DNA of 64,000 bases from a bacterium (GTDB taxonomy: Bacteria > Vulcanimicrobiota > Vulcanimicrobiia > Vulcanimicrobiales > Vulcanimicrobiaceae), in contig JAJYFL010000001.1 of NCBI GenBank assembly GCA_021790935.1, positions 1-64,000 of the forward strand, given 5' to 3'. Position numbers and translations under genes: made by a program. Below the pieces are notes generated by a model. It saw nothing but the letters and a program-made list of their open reading frames with translations, ran no database searches and had not been told where the DNA came from. Shown one piece after another: positions 3,351-12,563 of the stretch. Each line of letters starts with the position of its first letter. Positions within the stretch are counted from its first letter, which is position 1.

Positions 3351-3491
3351 CCCAGCTGCGAGCGCCTGCGTTAGGATCAAGATCGAATTCGAGATCGCTG
3401 AAAGAGAGGGTCTTCCGCGTTTCAAGCGGATTCCCGCATGAGGTCGAGACCGCCGCAGTGGGAGTAGATTGCATCGATGAAATTCGCCTTG

Positions 3492-6164
3492 TCACGGTGC
3501 GGTCTGCGGAACGATCGAGACGCGGACGAAGTCCCCAGGGCGAACCCACTTCGTCATCGCTTCGCGAACCTGCGCCGGCGTAACGCTCAGCACCGCCTTC
3601 CAGTCGATCCCGATATTGCGCTTGGCGTTGCCGGGAAACCACGCAGAACCGAGGAGATTGTCGGCCAGACCGCCGTAACTGTCGCGAGCCAGCTCGCTGC
3701 GCGCAAGCCAGGTGGCTTTCGCCTGCGCTAGATCCGCGTTCGAAACGTCGGTCGTTTGCAGGCGGCGCAGGTCGGCGAGAAGCGCCTCTTCCGCCGCGCT
3801 CACGTTCTTCGGGTCGGCGGCAAATGAAAACGTGTACGTCGAGCGCTGATGACCGATGTCGAGATTCGAGCCGACGCCGTACACGTAGCCGTGCCGCGTG
3901 CGCAGATCCTGGACCAGGCGCGACGCCGTGCCTTCTCCCGTCAGGATCGTATCGGCCAGCTCGAGCGCATACGTATCCGGATTCAACAGGTGGATTGGGA
4001 TGATTTCACCCAGCTGCACGTAGGTCTGTGCCGTTGTCGGCGACGGGATCGTCGCCGACGACGGCCCATTGAGCGGGATCATCGGGTAGCCGAACATGGG
4101 TTTCGGCCCGTCGTTCTTCCACGCGCCGAAATGCCTTGCGATCTCGCGGCAGGCGTAGGCCGGGTCGACATCGCCAACGACGGCGATCCTCGTCTCGTCC
4201 GGACGAAACGCCTTCTCGTACCACGCATGAACGTCGTCGAGCGTCAAGGCGCGAACGAACGCGGGGGTTGGATGGCGGCGCACCGGATCCCCGTAAGGAT
4301 ACAAACCTGAATCCATCGCGAGAAGCGCTTCCCAGGGTGGCCGGCTCTGCTGAGATTCGAGGATGCTGCGGTAGTTTCGTTGGATGAGCGTGAAGCCGTC
4401 TGTGGGGAACCGCGGGTGCAACATGTCGTCGGCGAGCAACGCCAGCGAGCGATCGAAATCGCGAGCTCGCGCACTCAGGCCGAAGCTCGTCCCCACGCGG
4501 ATCGTTGCCGGAATCGCCTCCACCGCGGCGGCAAATGCCTTGCGATCGAGGGTCGTCGTTCCCCAACTCATCAGGGCGTTGGTCACCTCGGCTACGCCCT
4601 GGCGTCCGTGGGGAGCGTAGAGTGTTTGGTTGTTCTCGATGCTTCCGATCATCTCCACGACCGGCGCCAAGCGCGAGCGCGTGGCGATCACGCTGATGCC
4701 GTTGGGTAAGACGCAGGTCTTGGTGTTCGCAGGTTCGTGCGGTGGTGCGAGCGGCCGGTGGAATGAGGCCGCGGCCCAAGCGGGCAATGGTTCCGGCTTG
4801 GGATTCGTGTTGACGACGTTTTCACCGCCGCCGGTACGAGTGCGGCGTCGTCCGGGCAGCCCGCCGGGCGAGACGCGCAGAGCCAAACGATCCGAAGTTC
4901 CCAGGTACGCTCGCAGCACGCGGTCGACGTCCGCGACACCGACACGCGAGTACGCGTTGCGCAACACCTCAGGCCCGCGTAAGCCCAGCGAGAGCGCGTT
5001 CACCCACCCGAATGCGGTGCCGGGAATCGACGTGAGGTCGAACGCTCGCGCGTCCAAGATTCGGCGTTTCGCATTTGCTATCGCGTCGGCAGGAACGCCC
5101 CGTGCAACGATCTGCTTGAGCGATTGCTGCAGCGTCGCAAGTGTTGCGGCAGTACCCGTGCCTGGCCGCACGACGGCCGAAAGACTCGCGGTCGAGAACT
5201 CGGCCGTCGTCGACACGGATGCGGAAGCGCCCAAGACTTTACCGGAAGCGGCAAGGTCGGCTAGCGCGCCGCGTGGGTCGTCCAGGGCTGAGATCAGAAT
5301 CTGGCCGGCTGCGTAGTCGGGCGACCTCAAGCCCGGAAAACGGAAGGCAAAGCCGACGCTCCCCACCGGCACGTCGAGCGTCGCGTCGATGGTCTGCGCC
5401 TTCAGCGGTTGCAGCGCGATCGGTGCGCGCGACGGAAGCCTGGCGGGGGGTATCTTCCCGAACTCGGTTCGTACCACGCGCAGGGTCGCCGCCGGATCGA
5501 CGCCGCCCGCGATCACCAAGGTCGCGTTGTTGGGATGGTACCAGGCGTTGTAAAACGAGCGCAGATCCGGCGCCTGGATCGCATTGAAACTCTTGACGGT
5601 CCCGAGTGCATCCCGAACGTAAGGCGTTCCGGCGTAAAGGGCTTCACGCACTCTCTGCGCCAGCCCGAAGTTCGGATTGCTTTCGTCCGCGCGCACTTCC
5701 TGTTCGATCGCGCCGCGCTCGAGGTCCCAGTCCCTCTCGGAGATCGTCGCGTTGCGCATCCGATCGGCTTCGATGTGAAGGATCACGTTCAGATAGCGCA
5801 CGGCCGCGGTGAAATAGTAGTTGGTGGACTCGTTGGAGGTGTTCGCGTCGTACTGCGCACCCATCCGAGCTCCGAGATCCGCGAGCAGATTCGCCGAGAT
5901 CGAGCGCGTTCCGCGAAACATCATGTGCTCGACGGCGTGCGCCTCCCCCGGTTTGGTCTCCTGATCGGATCCCGCGGCGTATGAAATGACGACCGTGACC
6001 ACGGGTGCGAGACCGTCGGGCACGATGACCACGTGCAGCCCGTTGGACAGCCGCGTGTCGACGGTTCGTGCGGCGGAGTCCGCAGCGGAGGTCATTCTCG
6101 GCGCCGGTCGCACGCCTAAAAGCACGACGAGCGTTAAGCAAAGCAGGCGTTTCATGATGTTCAT
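3492..6164 (-). CDS. M16 family zinc metallopeptidase, two tandem M16 modules
   Basis: An 890-residue exported insulinase-type peptidase, probably periplasmic. The start at 6164 (MNIMKRLLCLTLVVLL) gives a clear signal peptide; in-frame sequence further upstream is low quality and was left out. The first module carries the inverted zinc motif HxxEH as HAVEHMMFRGT, followed about 75 residues later by the third-ligand region (ERGAIEQEVRADE). The second module (from about residue 455, TKTCVLPNGISVIATRS) lacks an HxxEH, as is usual for the paired inactive half. It converges with the upstream plus-strand gene and starts six bases after a small membrane reading frame. Confidence 0.93.
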   Translation of the reverse strand: MNIMKRLLCLTLVVLLGVRPAPRMTSAADSAARTVDTRLSNGLHVVIVPDGLAPVVTVVISYAAGSDQETKPGEAHAVEHMMFRGTRSISANLLADLGARMGAQYDANTSNESTNYYFTAAVRYLNVILHIEADRMRNATISERDWDLERGAIEQEVRADESNPNFGLAQRVREALYAGTPYVRDALGTVKSFNAIQAPDLRSFYNAWYHPNNATLVIAGGVDPAATLRVVRTEFGKIPPARLPSRAPIALQPLKAQTIDATLDVPVGSVGFAFRFPGLRSPDYAAGQILISALDDPRGALADLAASGKVLGASASVSTTAEFSTASLSAVVRPGTGTAATLATLQQSLKQIVARGVPADAIANAKRRILDARAFDLTSIPGTAFGWVNALSLGLRGPEVLRNAYSRVGVADVDRVLRAYLGTSDRLALRVSPGGLPGRRRTRTGGGENVVNTNPKPEPLPAWAAASFHRPLAPPHEPANTKTCVLPNGISVIATRSRLAPVVEMIGSIENNQTLYAPHGRQGVAEVTNALMSWGTTTLDRKAFAAAVEAIPATIRVGTSFGLSARARDFDRSLALLADDMLHPRFPTDGFTLIQRNYRSILESQQSRPPWEALLAMDSGLYPYGDPVRRHPTPAFVRALTLDDVHAWYEKAFRPDETRIAVVGDVDPAYACREIARHFGAWKNDGPKPMFGYPMIPLNGPSSATIPSPTTAQTYVQLGEIIPIHLLNPDTYALELADTILTGEGTASRLVQDLRTRHGYVYGVGSNLDIGHQRSTYTFSFAADPKNVSAAEEALLADLRRLQTTDVSNADLAQAKATWLARSELARDSYGGLADNLLGSAWFPGNAKRNIGIDWKAVLSVTPAQVREAMTKWVRPGDFVRVSIVPQTAP

Positions 6165-6169
6165 CGCCC

Positions 6170-6349
6170 CTATGCGGCACCGCAAGCGAATTCCGCGTTG
6201 CCGACGAGCCGTGCGTAACTGGGATGGTTGACAACGAAGAGTATGCTCGCGAGAAAGACGAGCATGAATATGATCGCGCTCCCGAATGCCACGGGGAAGC
6301 CGTAGCGGGTTGCGATCGACGTCAGGATCAGTGAGTTGAACGCGCTCAT
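6170..6349 (-). CDS. Possible small membrane protein or transporter C-terminal remnant
   Basis: A 59-residue reading frame ending five bases before the M16 peptidase start. Residues 17-43 form one or two hydrophobic segments (FPVAFGSAIIFMLVFLASIL), followed by a short polar tail. It could be a small membrane protein translated with the peptidase, or the last membrane segments of a lost transporter: the hydrophobic pair followed by a short tail resembles MFS C-termini. No good ribosome binding site is visible before the ATG at 6349. Confidence 0.3.
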   Translation of the reverse strand: MSAFNSLILTSIATRYGFPVAFGSAIIFMLVFLASILFVVNHPSYARLVGNAEFACGAA

Positions 6350-6964
6350 GACGTTCAAGCCGGTATCCCCATACGGCCGAGCTTTTCGACCCCGGAGTGT
6401 CGGTTTCCGGCATTGCGGGACCGGCCCGGCGATGTAATTCGGGGTTTGGACCATATCGGGGATGCAAAGGGTGGCATCGTGCGTCACCGAGCGCTGAAAG
6501 AGAGGCGCGTACATTCTTGGTGTGTACTTTGAGCCAACACGCCGTCGTCGGTTACGTCGGCTGATTACACCCCGGCGCGTCCCGGATGGCAAACCGTTGA
6601 ACCCGACCCGCTTCGGTGGGCGGGTTAGTTTTCGGCGTTACCATCCTGCCGAGCTTGGCATGTGATCGTACTCTTGCGCGACTCCTCGTCGTCTCTGGTG
6701 TTCCGCTGCAATCGTTGCCGAACCAGTTGCTGTGGGCCGGGTGTGTCAGGAAGCGTGCTGTCCGTAGCTGCTCGCGGTCATTGAAATGAGACCTGCTCCG
6801 GACGATCACGTTGTCGTCCATGCGCGATGTGCCCGACCGCAGGGTAGACCAAGCGCTTGAGCACGGTGCACAGGCGAAGCGCGCGGATGCGCGTGATCGT
6901 CAGTGGTGGCACCGGTGCTGGCGAGGGTGCGCGAGCGTGTGCTCCGACAGGTGCGGTTCGCGGC
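6350..6964. other. 615-base intergenic stretch without a convincing gene
   Basis: Every open frame here is short, rich in Arg and Pro and lacks a ribosome binding site. The only structure I see is the hairpin at 6600-6626, listed separately. The stretch separates the M16 gene from the DUF5916 gene on the same strand, so it may hold the M16 promoter, but I see no clear -35/-10 pair. Confidence 0.5.
6600..6626 (+). terminator. Terminator-like hairpin
   Basis: AACCCG pairs with CGGGTT (one bulged A) and CCC with GGG around the loop GCTTCGGT. On the plus strand the stem is followed by AGTTTTC, a weak T-tract. No plus-strand gene ends nearby, so its role is unclear; it could insulate the M16 gene from antisense transcription. 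Confidence 0.35.
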
Positions 6965-9013
6965 TCACGTCCCCTTGGCCGCACCGAAATAATGGATCCA
7001 CTTCACGATGAATTGAGGAACGGTCGAGAAGGCGCTCGCGTCGCCGTAGACCGCGTAGATCTCGTCCCGCCCGCGCAAGATTTGGTGGTAGGCAGCCGAG
7101 AGATTCCACCCCGTTTGGAAGACAGGCGCCGTTCCCAACACCGGCGCCGTGCCCATGATTCGCCGTAGGCCGAGCGCGAACGAAGCGTTCGGCCCGGACT
7201 GCAGCGTGTAGGCAACGCGCTCGAGCCACTGCTCGTAGCGCGGGCCGGCGTCCATGAACTGATTGCTCCGATCGAGTTCCAGAGAGACCGAGCCGGTGCC
7301 CCCTGCGCGCCGCGTGCTCGTCAGCGACCAGTAATCGAGCCGGCCGCCTCCGAAGCGGCCCGTGCTGTATGCCAGGGTGGTCGGCGTCGCGCTCTGGCCG
7401 TGCTGCGCGCCATTGTTGACGCTCGTGTTCTGCGCGCCGCTTCCGAGCGTTACCGCGAGCGTATTCTGCGTGACCGGCGCGAAGCTGCCGTCATTCAAGC
7501 GAAGGTAGCTCGAACCGCCGTTGAGGTTTACGTCAACCAGACCGCGGGTGAGCAGGTCGAAGCTCCACGACTGATCGGTTTGATCGAGTTCGCCGGTGCG
7601 ATCGTGGTATCGGTCGAGCACCCCTGTGACCGTGATGCTGCGAATCGCCGCACCGGGCCGTTGCAGCCACGCGTGGGAAAGAAAACCGCCCCATCCGGCC
7701 ACGTCGGGATGCCAGATGTAACCGTCGTACGGATTGAAGTACTGCCCGATCTTCCGCGTACTGAAGGCGATCGTCGTCGTCGGGTCGTACCAGCCCGCGC
7801 CGAGATCGTAGAGCTGCGCACGCGCCCCGTCGGCGACGCGCGACCCCGTATCGGCACCGTAGTTGAAATAACTGAAAATGTGCTTGTTGTCGCCGTACGA
7901 AACGCCGACCTCGTTGGTGTCGTCGTGAAACCCCGGCATATCAACGCCGACGCGCTGAAACGAAGCGCTCAGCGTCTGCGAGCCGTTGTGCCAGCCGATG
8001 GCCTGCGCTTGATCGATGCGCGCCTTCCCGACAGCGTCGAAGGCTCCGTATTGGAAAGCGCCCTGCGTTCCTTCCACCGCATACCCATCGCGCGGCGTGG
8101 GAATCGCCGGCGTGTAGAGCGGAATGATACCGGAGCAGATAGCGCAATTGAAGTTGTCGTATGCCTGCTGCCCTTGCGTGAAGAACGGACGCACCTCTTG
8201 ATACATGCGCCGGTACGCGGTCGGGGATATGGTCTGTTGATCGAGTTCGACGTTCGAATAATCCGGATGGATGGTCGCGTAGAACGACGAGGTCGCGGTA
8301 AACGGCACGGAGAGGTCCACGCCGGTGCGCGCGGTCGAGCCGCCGGCGCTCGCGCCGGCGATGCTCCCAAGATTGTAGACCTGCAGGCGCGGCTCCGGGC
8401 GAGCGGCTGCGGGTACGATGCCGCTCAACCGTCCGGCAAAGATGGCGGCATTGGGCGAGGTTTCATTCCGGTTGTAGGACCAAACGAGGATATCGCCGGT
8501 CGATTCGACCGATCGTGAGAACTGCGCGAGCCAGGCCCGCCCCGCCACGGCGCCCCGCATGACATCGAGCGGAATCTTCATCGTCACCTCGTAGCCGCCG
8601 GACGTGATGCGCCCGTACGACCACCACGTCGGCTCGTACGCCGAGTTTTCCGACGATGACTGGTAATGGGTGCCGATGGGATTCGCCGCAAATTCGTAAC
8701 TAAAGCCGTTCGCACCCGACGGCCACAGGTCAACGGTCACCTCGTCATCGGTTCCGAAGCCGACGTCGTTCGTATGCTGGGTTTCCACCACGGGCACGGA
8801 CTGCCGCGCCTCGAACGCGACGTAGAGGTACTTCGCGTCCGCGCTAACCAGAACCGTCGTGCGAAATGGGGCCGGCTTGTGCCTCTGCAAATCCCAGGCC
8901 AGCGAGAGGTGCGCGGCGTTTTCCCACCCGGCTGCATGCACGCTGTGCAAGGACGGTGGCTTCGCTGCTTGCGGAACCTTGATCAGTGCGGCGGCGATCA
9001 ACGCGACGAACAC
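6965..9013 (-). CDS. DUF5916 / CBM9-like domain protein with predicted beta-barrel
   Basis: 682 residues. The GTG at 9013 is the only in-frame start fitting the upstream stop, three bases away. After a signal peptide, residues about 20-200 resemble the CBM9-like domain of this family (YLYVAFEARQ, DDEVTVDLWP, YEVTMKIPLDVM). The DUF5916 signature follows: HPDYSNVELDQQ and VRPFFTQGQQ, matching the family pattern FSQVE.D......F.PEKRPFF.EG. The remaining 400 residues alternate polar and hydrophobic and are rich in Gly, Tyr and Trp, as expected of an outer-membrane barrel. The protein ends in a run of short beta-like segments rather than a classical terminal Phe. It is the last gene of the BlaI / pentapeptide operon; this partnership is not one I know. 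Confidence 0.85.
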   Translation of the reverse strand: MFVALIAAALIKVPQAAKPPSLHSVHAAGWENAAHLSLAWDLQRHKPAPFRTTVLVSADAKYLYVAFEARQSVPVVETQHTNDVGFGTDDEVTVDLWPSGANGFSYEFAANPIGTHYQSSSENSAYEPTWWSYGRITSGGYEVTMKIPLDVMRGAVAGRAWLAQFSRSVESTGDILVWSYNRNETSPNAAIFAGRLSGIVPAAARPEPRLQVYNLGSIAGASAGGSTARTGVDLSVPFTATSSFYATIHPDYSNVELDQQTISPTAYRRMYQEVRPFFTQGQQAYDNFNCAICSGIIPLYTPAIPTPRDGYAVEGTQGAFQYGAFDAVGKARIDQAQAIGWHNGSQTLSASFQRVGVDMPGFHDDTNEVGVSYGDNKHIFSYFNYGADTGSRVADGARAQLYDLGAGWYDPTTTIAFSTRKIGQYFNPYDGYIWHPDVAGWGGFLSHAWLQRPGAAIRSITVTGVLDRYHDRTGELDQTDQSWSFDLLTRGLVDVNLNGGSSYLRLNDGSFAPVTQNTLAVTLGSGAQNTSVNNGAQHGQSATPTTLAYSTGRFGGGRLDYWSLTSTRRAGGTGSVSLELDRSNQFMDAGPRYEQWLERVAYTLQSGPNASFALGLRRIMGTAPVLGTAPVFQTGWNLSAAYHQILRGRDEIYAVYGDASAFSTVPQFIVKWIHYFGAAKGT

Positions 9014-9016
9014 GTT

Positions 9017-9736
9017 TCATATACCTCGGACGCCCGTGAGATCGGCGTGCGCCCGCTCTCGCAGAATCTGCGCCGTCAACGGCGCGCAACGTCGCGCGTA
9101 CCGCGCGGAGCTGCAGATCTGAACGCCGACCAGCGTTGCACCTCGTAGATCCGCCCCGGCAAAGTCGCTGCAAGCGATGCGGCCGTCGCGTTCGCGCAAG
9201 CACAGAACTGCCCCGGAAAAGTCGGCGCCCCGTAGATTCGTCCCGCGAAAATCGTCGCCCGCCAGCCGCGAGCCGGCAAAGGAAGCGCTCGCAAAATCGG
9301 CAGCGCGAAAGCGCGCGCCGGCGATATCGATGTTCGCCATCACGACGCCGTGCGCGCGTGCATCGCTCATGTCGACCCCAGCGATCTCGGTGCCGCCGAA
9401 ATGGGCGCCGCGCAGCCTCGCGGCGTGCATGTCCGTCCCAGCGAGGCGCATGTCGCGCATATCGGCACCGCGTAAATCTGCATGACGCAAGTCGACGCCC
9501 GCGAAGTTCGCATGAGCGAGGTCCGCGTTTCGCAAATTTGCGCGCTCAAGGTCGGAGCCGACCCACGAGACACCCTGCAAATCGCGGCCCTGCAAATCCG
9601 CACCGCTCATATCGCAACCGACGCAGCTCGCCGGTATGCCGTCACCGGCCGCGCGGACCGCAGGGGACGACAGGGACGCCAGCGCGAGCGCGATTGCTAG
9701 ACAGATGATCGATTTCCGATGGGTATTCATTCTCAT
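9017..9736 (-). CDS. Secreted pentapeptide-repeat protein
   Basis: 239 residues; an ATG at 9730 has the better-spaced ribosome binding site (GGAG seven bases upstream) and would remove two residues. Residues 9-30 are a signal peptide ending in AVRAA. From about residue 38 to 215 the chain is made of five-residue repeats of the A(D/N)LXX type (GADLQ, ANLRN, ADLAH, ANFAG, ADLRG), which fold as a right-handed quadrilateral beta-helix. The repeat domain opens with a Cys pair (SCVGCDMSG) that is also found in the sensor of the BlaR-like protein upstream. Further cysteines lie near the C-terminus. It is probably periplasmic and is followed three bases later by the DUF5916 gene. Confidence 0.85.
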   Translation of the reverse strand: MRMNTHRKSIICLAIALALASLSSPAVRAAGDGIPASCVGCDMSGADLQGRDLQGVSWVGSDLERANLRNADLAHANFAGVDLRHADLRGADMRDMRLAGTDMHAARLRGAHFGGTEIAGVDMSDARAHGVVMANIDIAGARFRAADFASASFAGSRLAGDDFRGTNLRGADFSGAVLCLRERDGRIACSDFAGADLRGATLVGVQICSSARYARRCAPLTAQILRERAHADLTGVRGI

Positions 9737-9809
9737 TCTCCGGTAGAAGCGCGCAGGAAACCAGGCTCGTACCGCACGGGCCCTGCAGAGGGATTGAACG
9801 CTGGGGAAG

Positions 9810-11705
9810 CTACATGGCCCGCAGTTTGCTGCCGACGATCCTGGCGCGGCTCAAGTCTACGCCCGACAAATCGACGCCCGAGAAGTCGCAGCCGATGAAG
9901 GTTGCCCCGTCGAGTTTTGCTCCTCGAAGGTGCGCGCCGTTGAGATCGACTCCGCTGAACGAGCTCTGCGAGAGATCGGATTCACGTAGATCGGCTCCGC
10001 TCAGGTTATCGCCCACCACGCTGATGCCGCGCAGATTCTGCCCGCGTAGGTTCGCGCCGCTGAAGTCACAGCCAGACCGGCAGACGTTCAGCAGCATACG
10101 CGCCTGCGCGGGGGCCAGAGCGCGTGCGTCGACATCGCACCCGGTCATCCGCGCGCCGTCAAAGCGCGCGCCGGTAAGGTCGGCATGGCTCAAGTCGCAT
10201 CCGGTGAGATTTGCGTTACGAAAGGATACGCCGCGCAGGTTCGCATGGCTGAAGTCGACGCCGGTGAGCGTCGATCCCGAAAAATCAGCATTCTGCAGCG
10301 AGGCACGCCTGAAGTCGGTGCCGATGAACGACCGATTGCGAAAGTCGTACCCGGCGAGGTTTTGACCGCTGTAGTCGCAGGCAATACAGCCTGCGCCGAG
10401 CGATAGCCCGGCACTCGCGCGCGCAATTCCGCGTGCCAGCGTAGGGATCGCGATCGTGCGTGCACGCCTGTCGATCCGTATGGCCGGTTCGTGAATGGTT
10501 ATAGCCGGAATTCGAATCGTCCGCGCAGGCACATGTATGTGCACCGCAGGAACCGCGACGCGGCCGGTGGCCGCCCGGCTCGGCGATGGCGTCCGCGCAA
10601 TCGCGGCGGCGACCGCACGTTTTGCGACGACCTGCGGAAGCGTGAAGGCGAACGACGGCGTGACGTTCAGCATGACGAAGAAAAGAAGGGCCAGAGCGAC
10701 GGCGAGAGCGCTTGTCGGCCCCAGGGCAATGCTGGTACGAATATTGCGTCCCGCGCGCAGCAAGCGTTCGACCCGAATCGAAAGCCCGCGCCGCGTTACG
10801 AAGACGCCGGGCGCGGCGACCGCGCGATGCGGCCAACCCGTCACTTCGGCCATCTTGGTGAGGCACGATGCGTAGGGACGTGCGTCGCTCGTCTGCCGCA
10901 ACACCCAGTCGTCGCACGCAACCTCGCGCTCGAGGTCAAGTTGTGCGCCGATGAAGAGCACCGCCGGATTGAAGAAGCTCAACGCCTGGATGACGCGCTG
11001 CGCGCCGTTGCTCCAATCATCCGCGCGCCGTAGGTGCGCGAGTTCGTGCAGGACGATGTAATCGATCTGCTCCTCCGAAAGCGTCTCGAGCAAGTGGCGC
11101 GGGATCAGGATCATTGAATCGAATAACCCCACTGCGACCGGGACCTCGATCGCGTCGGAGGTACAAAGGCGCACGTCGCGCGCGCCCCTCTGAAGGCCGC
11201 CGTAATGCGGCAAGCGTTCGCGGTATTCGGGCGGCAGCGGCAACGCATCGCGTTTGAGCCGTTCCAAGCGGTAGAGATTGACGGCGAAGCGCACCAGAAG
11301 CGCGAAGACTGCGGCCATCCACAGAACGAAGAGTACGACGCCCGCGAGCGCGGGCACCGAGATGCGCACGCGATGCGGCGGTTGTGAGACGAGGGGAACC
11401 GATGCGACGCGCAGCGGTGCCGCCGAGCGTGCCGAGGGCCGTACCGCGGATCGAACGGAAGCAGAGGGGCGCCCCACAGCTGCTTGCATCCGAGCGTGCG
11501 GTAATGTGCTCGCGAGCGGCAGCAGGACCGAGGCGAATAGCACAACACCCCACGCCGCATACCGAGTGGCCGCATTGACGTTCGGAATGAACGTCAGCAG
11601 CAGCCACACCGCAAGCGCGAGCACGGCGGCCTCCCAAAGGCTGTTGAACAGAGCGGTAACTGCCGCCGGTGCGAAGAATTGCAAGAACGTAACGGCGGCG
11701 TGCAT
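9810..11705 (-). CDS. BlaR1/M56-type membrane metalloprotease fused to a pentapeptide-repeat domain
   Basis: 631 residues. Hydrophobic helices lie near residues 16-40, 50-66, 117-142 and 333-352, as in BlaR1/MecR1. The M56 zinc motif HELAH is at 220-224, with a downstream Glu in EREVACDDW (about 260) as third ligand. In BlaR1 the fourth helix is followed by a penicillin-binding sensor. Here it is followed by a spacer with a repeating [VI]PA..I pattern (about 384-425), then pentapeptide repeats from about 440 to the end (GQNLA, TDFRR, ADFSG, ANLRG, ADLRE). The repeat region opens with GCIACDYSG and later has CRSGCDFSG. The topology implies a cytoplasmic or membrane protease and a periplasmic repeat domain. 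The ATG overlaps the blaI stop by one base (TGATG). Confidence 0.9.
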   Translation of the reverse strand: MHAAVTFLQFFAPAAVTALFNSLWEAAVLALAVWLLLTFIPNVNAATRYAAWGVVLFASVLLPLASTLPHARMQAAVGRPSASVRSAVRPSARSAAPLRVASVPLVSQPPHRVRISVPALAGVVLFVLWMAAVFALLVRFAVNLYRLERLKRDALPLPPEYRERLPHYGGLQRGARDVRLCTSDAIEVPVAVGLFDSMILIPRHLLETLSEEQIDYIVLHELAHLRRADDWSNGAQRVIQALSFFNPAVLFIGAQLDLEREVACDDWVLRQTSDARPYASCLTKMAEVTGWPHRAVAAPGVFVTRRGLSIRVERLLRAGRNIRTSIALGPTSALAVALALLFFVMLNVTPSFAFTLPQVVAKRAVAAAIARTPSPSRAATGRVAVPAVHIHVPARTIRIPAITIHEPAIRIDRRARTIAIPTLARGIARASAGLSLGAGCIACDYSGQNLAGYDFRNRSFIGTDFRRASLQNADFSGSTLTGVDFSHANLRGVSFRNANLTGCDLSHADLTGARFDGARMTGCDVDARALAPAQARMLLNVCRSGCDFSGANLRGQNLRGISVVGDNLSGADLRESDLSQSSFSGVDLNGAHLRGAKLDGATFIGCDFSGVDLSGVDLSRARIVGSKLRAM

Positions 11706-12088
11706 CAGCCCTTCTCCTCGTACGCGTCGATGAGCTGCTTCAGCCGCCGGATCTCGTCCTCGCCGAGGCTGCCCTCCTCAATGAGACGTAGTGCGAGGGC
11801 CCCGGAATTGTTTCCGAAGAAGCGGCTCAGCACGCTACCGACGGCCGATTTGGCCGCATCTTCCCTTTCAATCACGGGCTCGTACACATACGCCCGGCCC
11901 TCCTCGTCATGGCGAACGTGGCCTTTCCTCTCCAGGATGCGCATCGTGGTCAGCACGGTGTTGTATGCGAGCGGCGGCGGCGGCAGCGCTTCCGCGACCT
12001 GCGTGACCGTGGCGTGGCGCTTCTGCCATAGGACTTCCATCAAGCGGAGTTCCGCCTCGGTGAGGGTACTGGATCTCTTGCGAGCCAC
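11705..12088 (-). CDS. BlaI/MecI-family transcriptional repressor
   Basis: 127 residues starting at GTG 12088 behind GGGAGGA. The N-terminal winged helix is typical of the family: LTEAELRLMEVLW, then AYNTVLTTMRILERKG(HV), then a wing with YVYEPVIERE. The C-terminal half (VGSVLSRFFGNN...LKQLIDAY) is the usual dimerisation helix region. BlaI-type repressors bind a dyad over their own promoter and are inactivated when the partner M56 protease is triggered; the next gene encodes such a protease. It is the first gene of a four-gene operon ending with the DUF5916 protein. Confidence 0.92.
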   Translation of the reverse strand: MARKRSSTLTEAELRLMEVLWQKRHATVTQVAEALPPPPLAYNTVLTTMRILERKGHVRHDEEGRAYVYEPVIEREDAAKSAVGSVLSRFFGNNSGALALRLIEEGSLGEDEIRRLKQLIDAYEEKG

Positions 12089-12100
12089 GAGGTCCTCCCA

Positions 12101-12120
12101 ACAACTAATTCGTTAGTAGT
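12101..12120 (-). promoter_or_regulatory. Candidate BlaI operator
   Basis: An imperfect dyad with perfect inner arms ACTAA / TTAGT around TTCG (12104-12117), extended by matching outer AC / GT. It ends 13 bases before the blaI start codon, where a repressor would block the promoter or the ribosome site. The outer ACTA / TAGT letters resemble the TACTACA / TGTAGTA arms of known Bla/Mec operators. Confidence 0.5.
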
Positions 12121-12479
12121 ACTCTACGCCGGCGAGCCCGCCTTGTCAACCGGTAGCTCCGTATGGTCGAGCCATTCAGCCCGAGATTAGCAGTCCCCGG
12201 CCTTGAAGGCACGGCGCGGCATTTTCGGTTGCGTGTATTGCTAGGAGAGGGACGGACTAGCGCGCTCCTCGGCGCCGAACTCCGCAAGACTGTACTCGAC
12301 GCAGCCTGCGATGCGCATCCGGAACGCTTCGTACGCGCCTCGGCACCGCGATCCGAAAGTCGTCCTCTTCACGGCAGGGCTCGCTAAAAACCTCACGATG
12401 ACACGTTAATCCCAATAATTACGAAGGGGTGCCGTAAATACCAGTAATTCGGAATTATTGTGATCGAGCAAGCACATAC
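12121..12479. other. 359-base intergenic region between blaI and tRNA-Leu
   Basis: Open frames in this interval have no ribosome binding site and unlikely composition. The part next to the operator should hold the blaI promoter, but I see no confident -35/-10 pair. The part next to the tRNA is AT-rich and palindromic (listed separately). Confidence 0.5.
12413..12460. repeat. AT-rich nested palindromes downstream of tRNA-Leu
   Basis: CAATAATT at 12413-12420 is inverted at 12453-12460. Inside it, TAATTCGGAATTA at 12444-12456 is a near-perfect palindrome. The base composition is far below that of the neighbourhood. It lies about 20 bases past the tRNA 3' end and could form the tRNA terminator or mark an old recombination site; neither is shown. 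Confidence 0.4.
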
Positions 12480-12563
12480 TGCCCAGAAAGGGACTCGAAC
12501 CCCCACGGCCTTGCGGCCACTGATACCTGAAACCAGCGCGTCTACCAATTCCGCCATCTGGGC
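12480..12563 (-). tRNA. tRNA-Leu (CAG anticodon)
   Basis: 84 bases on the minus strand. The acceptor stem GCCCAGA pairs with TCTGGGC, the discriminator is A, and CCA is not encoded. The D arm has GGCGGAATTGGTAGACGC, the usual class II leucine sequence. The anticodon loop TTCAGGT gives CAG. A long variable arm (GTGGCCGCAAGGCCGT region) and the T arm GGTTCGAGTCC complete the cloverleaf. Confidence 0.95.

Follow-up and report, generated by a model that had tools for sequence, protein, structure and literature searches.

The window, that is, the whole 64,000-nucleotide stretch of DNA analysed, belongs to an assembly of 2.65 Mb. The relatives of the host that bear names are Candidatus Eremiobacterota, a little-studied phylum of soil bacteria. 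As a sequence-only reading of this DNA had described, four genes lie on one strand, with a 1-base overlap between blaI and the M56 gene, a gap of 73 bases between the M56 and pentapeptide genes and a gap of 3 bases between the pentapeptide and barrel genes. The genes and their parts are as follows.

11705–12088, minus strand: BlaI-type winged-helix repressor, 127 aa (PF03965)
9810–11705, minus strand: M56 membrane metalloprotease with a pentapeptide-repeat sensor, 631 aa, four predicted TM helices (PF05569, PF00805, model, 19 orthologues)
11034–11048, minus strand: HELAH zinc motif, residues 220–224, with E261..D265 supplying ExxxD (invariant in 19 sequences)
10449–10562, minus strand: periplasmic linker with short strands every 7 residues (VxVPAxx-like heptads, residues 382–419; model of low to medium confidence, heptads also in orthologues)
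9813–10397, minus strand: periplasmic sensor, two pentapeptide beta-helix modules (residues 437–525 and 542–631) with a short helix between them (Pfam, model, Foldseek)
9017–9736, minus strand: secreted pentapeptide-repeat paralogue with signal peptide, 239 aa (PF00805, alignment, tree)
6965–9013, minus strand: DUF5916-related outer-membrane protein, 682 aa (Pfam, orthologues, AlphaFold model)
within 6965–9013, minus strand: CBM9-like domain at about 8423–8914 and beta-barrel at about 6983–8389 (AlphaFold model, structure matches)

The earlier description of the repressor and of the HELAH protease as intact was borne out. The Penicillinase_R winged-helix family (PF03965) matches BlaI over almost its full length (residues 9–121; 109.4 bits, 1.7e-31; cut-off 22.6 bits), and the protein aligns with MecI (1okr). 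In the known system, BlaR1 cleaves BlaI directly, at a site with F102 in P1′ (PMC9834060). Leu102, invariant among the 22 orthologues aligned, is aligned with this Phe102. By sequence, the hydrophobic P1′ residue of BlaI/MecI repressors is present at the cleavage position, as Leu in the Eremiobacterota protein where BlaI of the BlaI–BlaR1 system has Phe.

The protease domain of the M56 protein was matched by PF05569 (125 bits, cut-off 31). H220, E221, H224, D229, E261 and D265 are invariant in the 19 M56–pentapeptide sequences, and D229 and E261..D265 correspond to D210 and ExxxD of BlaR1. The model has four membrane helices and a protease fold matching BlaR1 (8exr, TM 0.59); the HEXXH...ExxxD motif and the four TM helices of BlaR1/MecR1 are therefore both present. 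The TM2–TM3 loop is variable and poorly ordered in the model. Because the homologous BlaR1 cleaves BlaI directly, the M56 protein should inactivate BlaI upon a change in its periplasmic domain, and by this analogy it very probably cleaves BlaI.

Pentapeptide repeats had been proposed to stand where BlaR1 carries its penicillin sensor, and about 195 residues of them were found there, at residues 437–631 (PF00805, 143.5 bits, cut-off 20.2). This region was modelled as two beta-helix modules with a pLDDT of about 90. Tandem A(D/N)LXX repeats were recognized by PF00805 in both the M56 protein and the secreted protein, and the quadrilateral beta-helix in the sensor model and its Foldseek matches. 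The sensor opens with a CxxC pair (C440/C443) that is invariant in 19 sensors. A search of the M56 protein against Pfam and NCBIfam gave no transpeptidase or beta-lactamase family match, and beta-lactam sensing was rejected since no penicillin-binding domain was found in these databases. The NCBIfam model blaR1_generic covers residues 35–279 only (80 bits, cut-off 400). The operon contains a pentapeptide protein and a barrel rather than the beta-lactamase or PBP2a that BlaR1/MecR1 regulate. Gyrase protection of the Qnr/MfpA kind was also rejected: the two pentapeptide proteins reached 63.8 and 53.1 bits against the Qnr cut-off of 240, and they are secreted or membrane-anchored. Five other loci (L048, L049, L093, L094 and L095) encode a BlaI-paired M56 protein in which a helical repeat array (AGYxxL..DDLxxLKxxGV type) replaces the pentapeptides. 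The helical array is a second swappable solenoid sensor on M56.

Footprinting upstream of blaI gave a candidate BlaI operator dyad of 18 bp, CTACTAAnnnnTTAGTAG. It usually occurs in two copies 44–46 bp apart that flank the promoter (about 30 loci); in relatives, one copy overlaps TTGACA and the second directly follows the −10 box. The window keeps one operator only, the downstream copy, just past the promoter.

12102–12119, minus strand: putative BlaI operator dyad CTACTAACGAATTAGTTG (matrix score 25.8 bits)
12121–12149, minus strand: sigma-70-like promoter, TTGACA at 12144–12149, 17-bp spacer, TAGAGT at 12121–12126 (sequence, same arrangement in relatives)

When the 64-kb window was scanned with the operator matrix, the site at 12102–12119 scored 25.8 bits, the next best site 3.9 and the best of 20 shuffles 16.2; the 25.8-bit score is partly by construction, because these promoters, with the window site among them, served as the training set of the matrix. 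Independent support for the predicted operator comes from its constant spacing, its position relative to the promoter and its scarcity elsewhere. In a genome scan allowing at most 1 mismatch, the dyad at 12102–12119 was the only convincing copy; one other 1-mismatch match in the genome, CTCTTAATCAATTGGTTG, occurs unchanged in several genomes. Predicted dyad operators thus lie at the repressor's own promoter, as for BlaI/MecI, and BlaI in all likelihood autoregulates the operon.

Similar sites were seen beside other genes. An ABC-type export operon, MacAB-like by eye, is preceded by a BlaI-like operator (L139, about 3584). Two loci have an additional gene (about 280 aa) ahead of blaI (L056:14963–15811 and L060, about 15120), itself preceded by a BlaI-like operator; the L056 gene (14963–15811) has a weak DUF4097 match. 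A virginiamycin-B-lyase-family beta-propeller gene on the opposite strand adjoins the BlaI operators in about 12 loci (L074:6390–7511 and relatives) and may share regulation with the BlaI operon.

The third gene had been read as encoding a secreted protein made of the same repeats with the same opening Cys pair, and this held. The protein has a signal-peptide-like hydrophobic stretch and matches PF00805 with 111.5 bits (cut-off 20.2). Its Cys pairs C38/C41, C179/C189 and C208/C217 are invariant in 16 secreted proteins. A secretion signal together with Cys pairs at both helix ends is the arrangement of YjbI, a secreted pentapeptide protein of Caulobacter crescentus, which has Cys pairs and silences envelope-stress pathways (PMC12864828). 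Cells lose YjbI under zinc, sucrose and acid stress and replenish it by feedback, and the cysteines of the protein are dispensable for its Zn-induced turnover (PMC12864828). YjbI acts on two histidine-kinase systems, not on M56 (PMC12864828); further marks of its type are a charged tail at the C-terminus that crosses the outer membrane, and location in the LPS layer.

In the tree, all sensors separate from all secreted repeats (100/99), a split that fits a single ancient duplication and subsequent co-inheritance. In one related family (f3), the M56 protein bears repeats of the secreted clade and its C-terminus is the Cys-rich tail of the secreted protein. Secreted-type repeats can thus themselves form an M56 sensor, and at the sequence level this fusion suggests that an interaction between sensor and paralogue is plausible. 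Coevolution was analysed from distance matrices. The partial correlation was 0.46 between sensor and paralogue and 0.60 between paralogue and protease; specific sensor–paralogue coevolution was rejected because the second correlation is at least as strong as the first. That the secreted protein acts directly on the sensor is given slightly less than an even chance. Should it act directly, its effect would likely be negative, by analogy with YjbI, a silencer replenished by feedback, and this precedent favours negative feedback.

The assignment of the fourth gene to a DUF5916 barrel stood in part. Its model contains a CBM9-like domain and a barrel (CBM9 1i82, TM 0.71, plus outer-membrane receptors), so both parts are present in the predicted structure, but the window protein matches DUF5916 (PF19313) with 19.1 bits over 56 residues, under the cut-off of 22.6. 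Two barrel orthologues exceed this cut-off (L034, 23.3 bits; L069, 26.5 bits). At E ≤ 0.01, DUF5916 matches 12 of 19 barrel orthologues and CBM9_1 matches 8 of 19. A literature search found no paper naming DUF5916, which is weak evidence as its coverage was incomplete. A gene of about 300 aa without Pfam match often directly follows the barrel gene (12 loci; L034:8337–9266, L039:8303–9079 and relatives).

The barrel family is multi-copy in Eremiobacterota, with 3–7 matches per genome in 11 genomes. An operator-like site (at least 14.6 bits) was found upstream of 6 of the 31 barrel genes located outside the operon in these 11 genomes; the other 25 had none. One of the six sites lies in a shared divergent region (L045) and one directly before blaI (L069); four belong to distant copies (L134, L140, L178 and L182). 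Among the barrel genes of ten genomes that lack the fusion, 0 of 17 had such a site; this difference is borderline (Fisher one-sided p 0.06). Of the six barrel genes with a site, two adjoin blaI. When 5000 stretches of 310 bases were drawn at random from the window, none reached 14 bits. For some copies the link between barrel and predicted operator is real. Since certain barrel genes have their own predicted operator although they lie outside the operon, the barrel appears to be a regulated output. The earlier suggestions that its state is also what the sensor reports, and that sensor and secreted paralogue stack or compete, would be conjecture. In L048 and L049, the barrel gene is still linked to BlaI–M56 though the sensor is a helical repeat.

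The fusion had been open to the objections of assembly error and lack of conservation. A class-wide search of 117 genomes gave a match in 85, and M56 and pentapeptides were in one reading frame in about 60 of 117, a hand tally in which family f3 was counted from a separate locus listing. The search for the same neighbourhood elsewhere found the complete order BlaI, M56–pentapeptide, pentapeptide, barrel in 19 loci other than the window. Assembly error or chance was ruled out as the source of the fusion because it recurs in many genera and independent assemblies. These data support conservation, as one unit, of a predicted signalling pair (BlaI and an M56 protein with pentapeptide repeats in its periplasmic part), the secreted paralogue and the barrel as output.

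In the search that gave matches outside Eremiobacterota (Acidobacteria, Verrucomicrobia and others), these spanned the M56 part only. Two fused or cassette loci are titled Proteobacteria or Rhodospirillales, and a genome search places their contigs in the class and family of the host. Plasmid records searched with the fusion gave no match covering 80% of the query. The secreted paralogue is not always needed, since L042 has the sensor with no adjacent paralogue, L059 has no adjacent secreted gene within its short contig, and L048 and L049 have BlaI–M56 without any pentapeptides.

The cassette has a patchy distribution. Within the genus of the host, the locus belongs to a segment that a sister species lacks at the corresponding site.

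3390–12334, no strand assigned: 8.9-kb segment (operon and M16 peptidase) missing in the sister species (blastn against L152)

In this blastn comparison the flanks of the segment are 92–96% identical and meet within 7 bases. Neither direct nor inverted repeats were found at the ends of the segment and its GC content is host-like, and it was rejected as a mobile element on these grounds. A tRNA-Leu (12480–12563) adjoins the segment. The neighbouring M16 gene was rejected as a component of the system because M16 homologues were not found next to any of the other cassettes.

The locus is probably a previously unrecognised cell-envelope sensing system. The interpretation proposed here, a self-contained envelope-sensing switch of the BlaI–BlaR1 kind with negative feedback by the secreted protein, is held at an even chance. 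In the resting state, BlaI would sit on the operator dyads around the operon promoter and all four genes would be repressed. The M56 protein would pass through the inner membrane four times; its zinc protease would lie on the cytoplasmic side and its pentapeptide rods would extend into the periplasm. Once the sensor has been relieved or disturbed, the protease would cut BlaI near residue 102 and the operon would be derepressed. The outer-membrane CBM9/barrel protein would then be made, altering uptake or permeability, and new secreted pentapeptide protein would be made as well. Most likely the latter would bind or shield the sensor and switch it off in a healthy envelope. Under stress, its loss or occupation would be the signal, and resynthesis would reset the system. 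A more far-reaching reading is signalling from solenoid to solenoid: the M56 receptor and the secreted ligand from its operon would be paralogous rods of pentapeptides, and BlaI proteolysis, and through it the content of outer-membrane barrel, would be set by ligand occupancy or loss in the envelope rather than by an antibiotic. It is regarded as possible, though doubtful.

Other mechanisms were weighed against the same observations. The sensor could read a small ligand, a metal or the redox state directly, through its CxxC pair or by ion binding along the rod, and the secreted paralogue would then be a second effector, for instance an outer-membrane stabiliser, rather than a partner of the sensor. 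The invariance of C440/C443 in 19 sensors, Ca2+ binding by 2G0Y, treated as a YjbI orthologue (PMC12864828), the lack of specificity of the coevolution test and the sensor without adjacent paralogue in L042 all fit this mechanism. It sits less well with the side-by-side position of the paralogous sensor and secreted repeats in most loci and with the f3 fusion of secreted-type repeats to M56, and is considered unlikely. Alternatively, the secreted paralogue, or a damage-derived form of it, could be an activator that binds the sensor, turns the protease on and creates positive feedback. Candidate ligand and receptor are both encoded in the operon, and ligand binding is what activates the BlaR1 protease (PMC9834060). 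An autogenous activator would, however, lock the operon on unless it were sequestered, and YjbI, the known secreted pentapeptide regulator, is a silencer; activation is judged improbable.

The pentapeptide domain might also be a mere rigid periplasmic spacer or oligomerisation rod, with sensing in the TM2–TM3 loop or the heptad linker. Such a role would agree with L048, L049 and L093–L095, which keep BlaI–M56 with the helical array in place of the pentapeptides. The sensors nevertheless form one well-supported clade with invariant cysteines, a constraint beyond the needs of a spacer, and the TM2–TM3 loop is variable and poorly ordered; this role is considered very improbable.

The switch proposed above resembles BlaI–BlaR1 and MecI–MecR1 of staphylococci and Bacillus in having repressor and M56 protease in one operon, HEXXH...E, a C-terminal periplasmic sensor and operator dyads at the promoter. 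Unlike them, the Eremiobacterota locus has no penicillin-binding sensor and no linked beta-lactamase or PBP2a; it adds the pentapeptide rods, the secreted paralogue and the barrel output. With YjbI it shares, by features, a signal peptide, a beta-helix with Cys pairs, a proposed role as reporter of envelope state and a feedback loop ending in outer-membrane barrels, whereas the YjbI paper has no mention of BlaI or M56 and reports no membrane-anchored paralogue (PMC12864828). The barrel protein is like DUF5916/CBM9-like outer-membrane proteins in its N-terminal CBM9-like domain, its outer-membrane barrel and its weak PF19313 signature, but it falls under the Pfam cut-off and represents a divergent branch tied to BlaI operators. 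The helical-repeat BlaI–M56 pairs (L048, L049, L093–L095) have the same repressor, protease and operator pair, and in L048 and L049 also the barrel gene; they differ in their solenoid repeat and have no adjacent secreted pentapeptide gene. A literature search, weak as evidence given its incomplete coverage, found no paper joining pentapeptide repeats with BlaR1 and M56. The Eremiobacterota system is of the BlaI–BlaR1 kind with a new sensor, and is described in no paper found.

To our knowledge, BlaI–M56 pairs, which are common, have been studied nearly exclusively as antibiotic-resistance switches. Here, a new sensor, its cognate secreted protein and an output share one operon with a defined operator, which makes the prediction testable. 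If it is true, M56 proteases would sense the envelope in general, through interchangeable solenoid sensors built of pentapeptide or helical repeats, and DUF5916-type barrels would gain their first regulatory context. Secreted pentapeptide proteins, recently tied to envelope control in Caulobacter (PMC12864828), would gain a direct one-step receptor. If signalling does pass from solenoid to solenoid, the class would possess an envelope-stress pathway outside two-component and sigma/anti-sigma systems.
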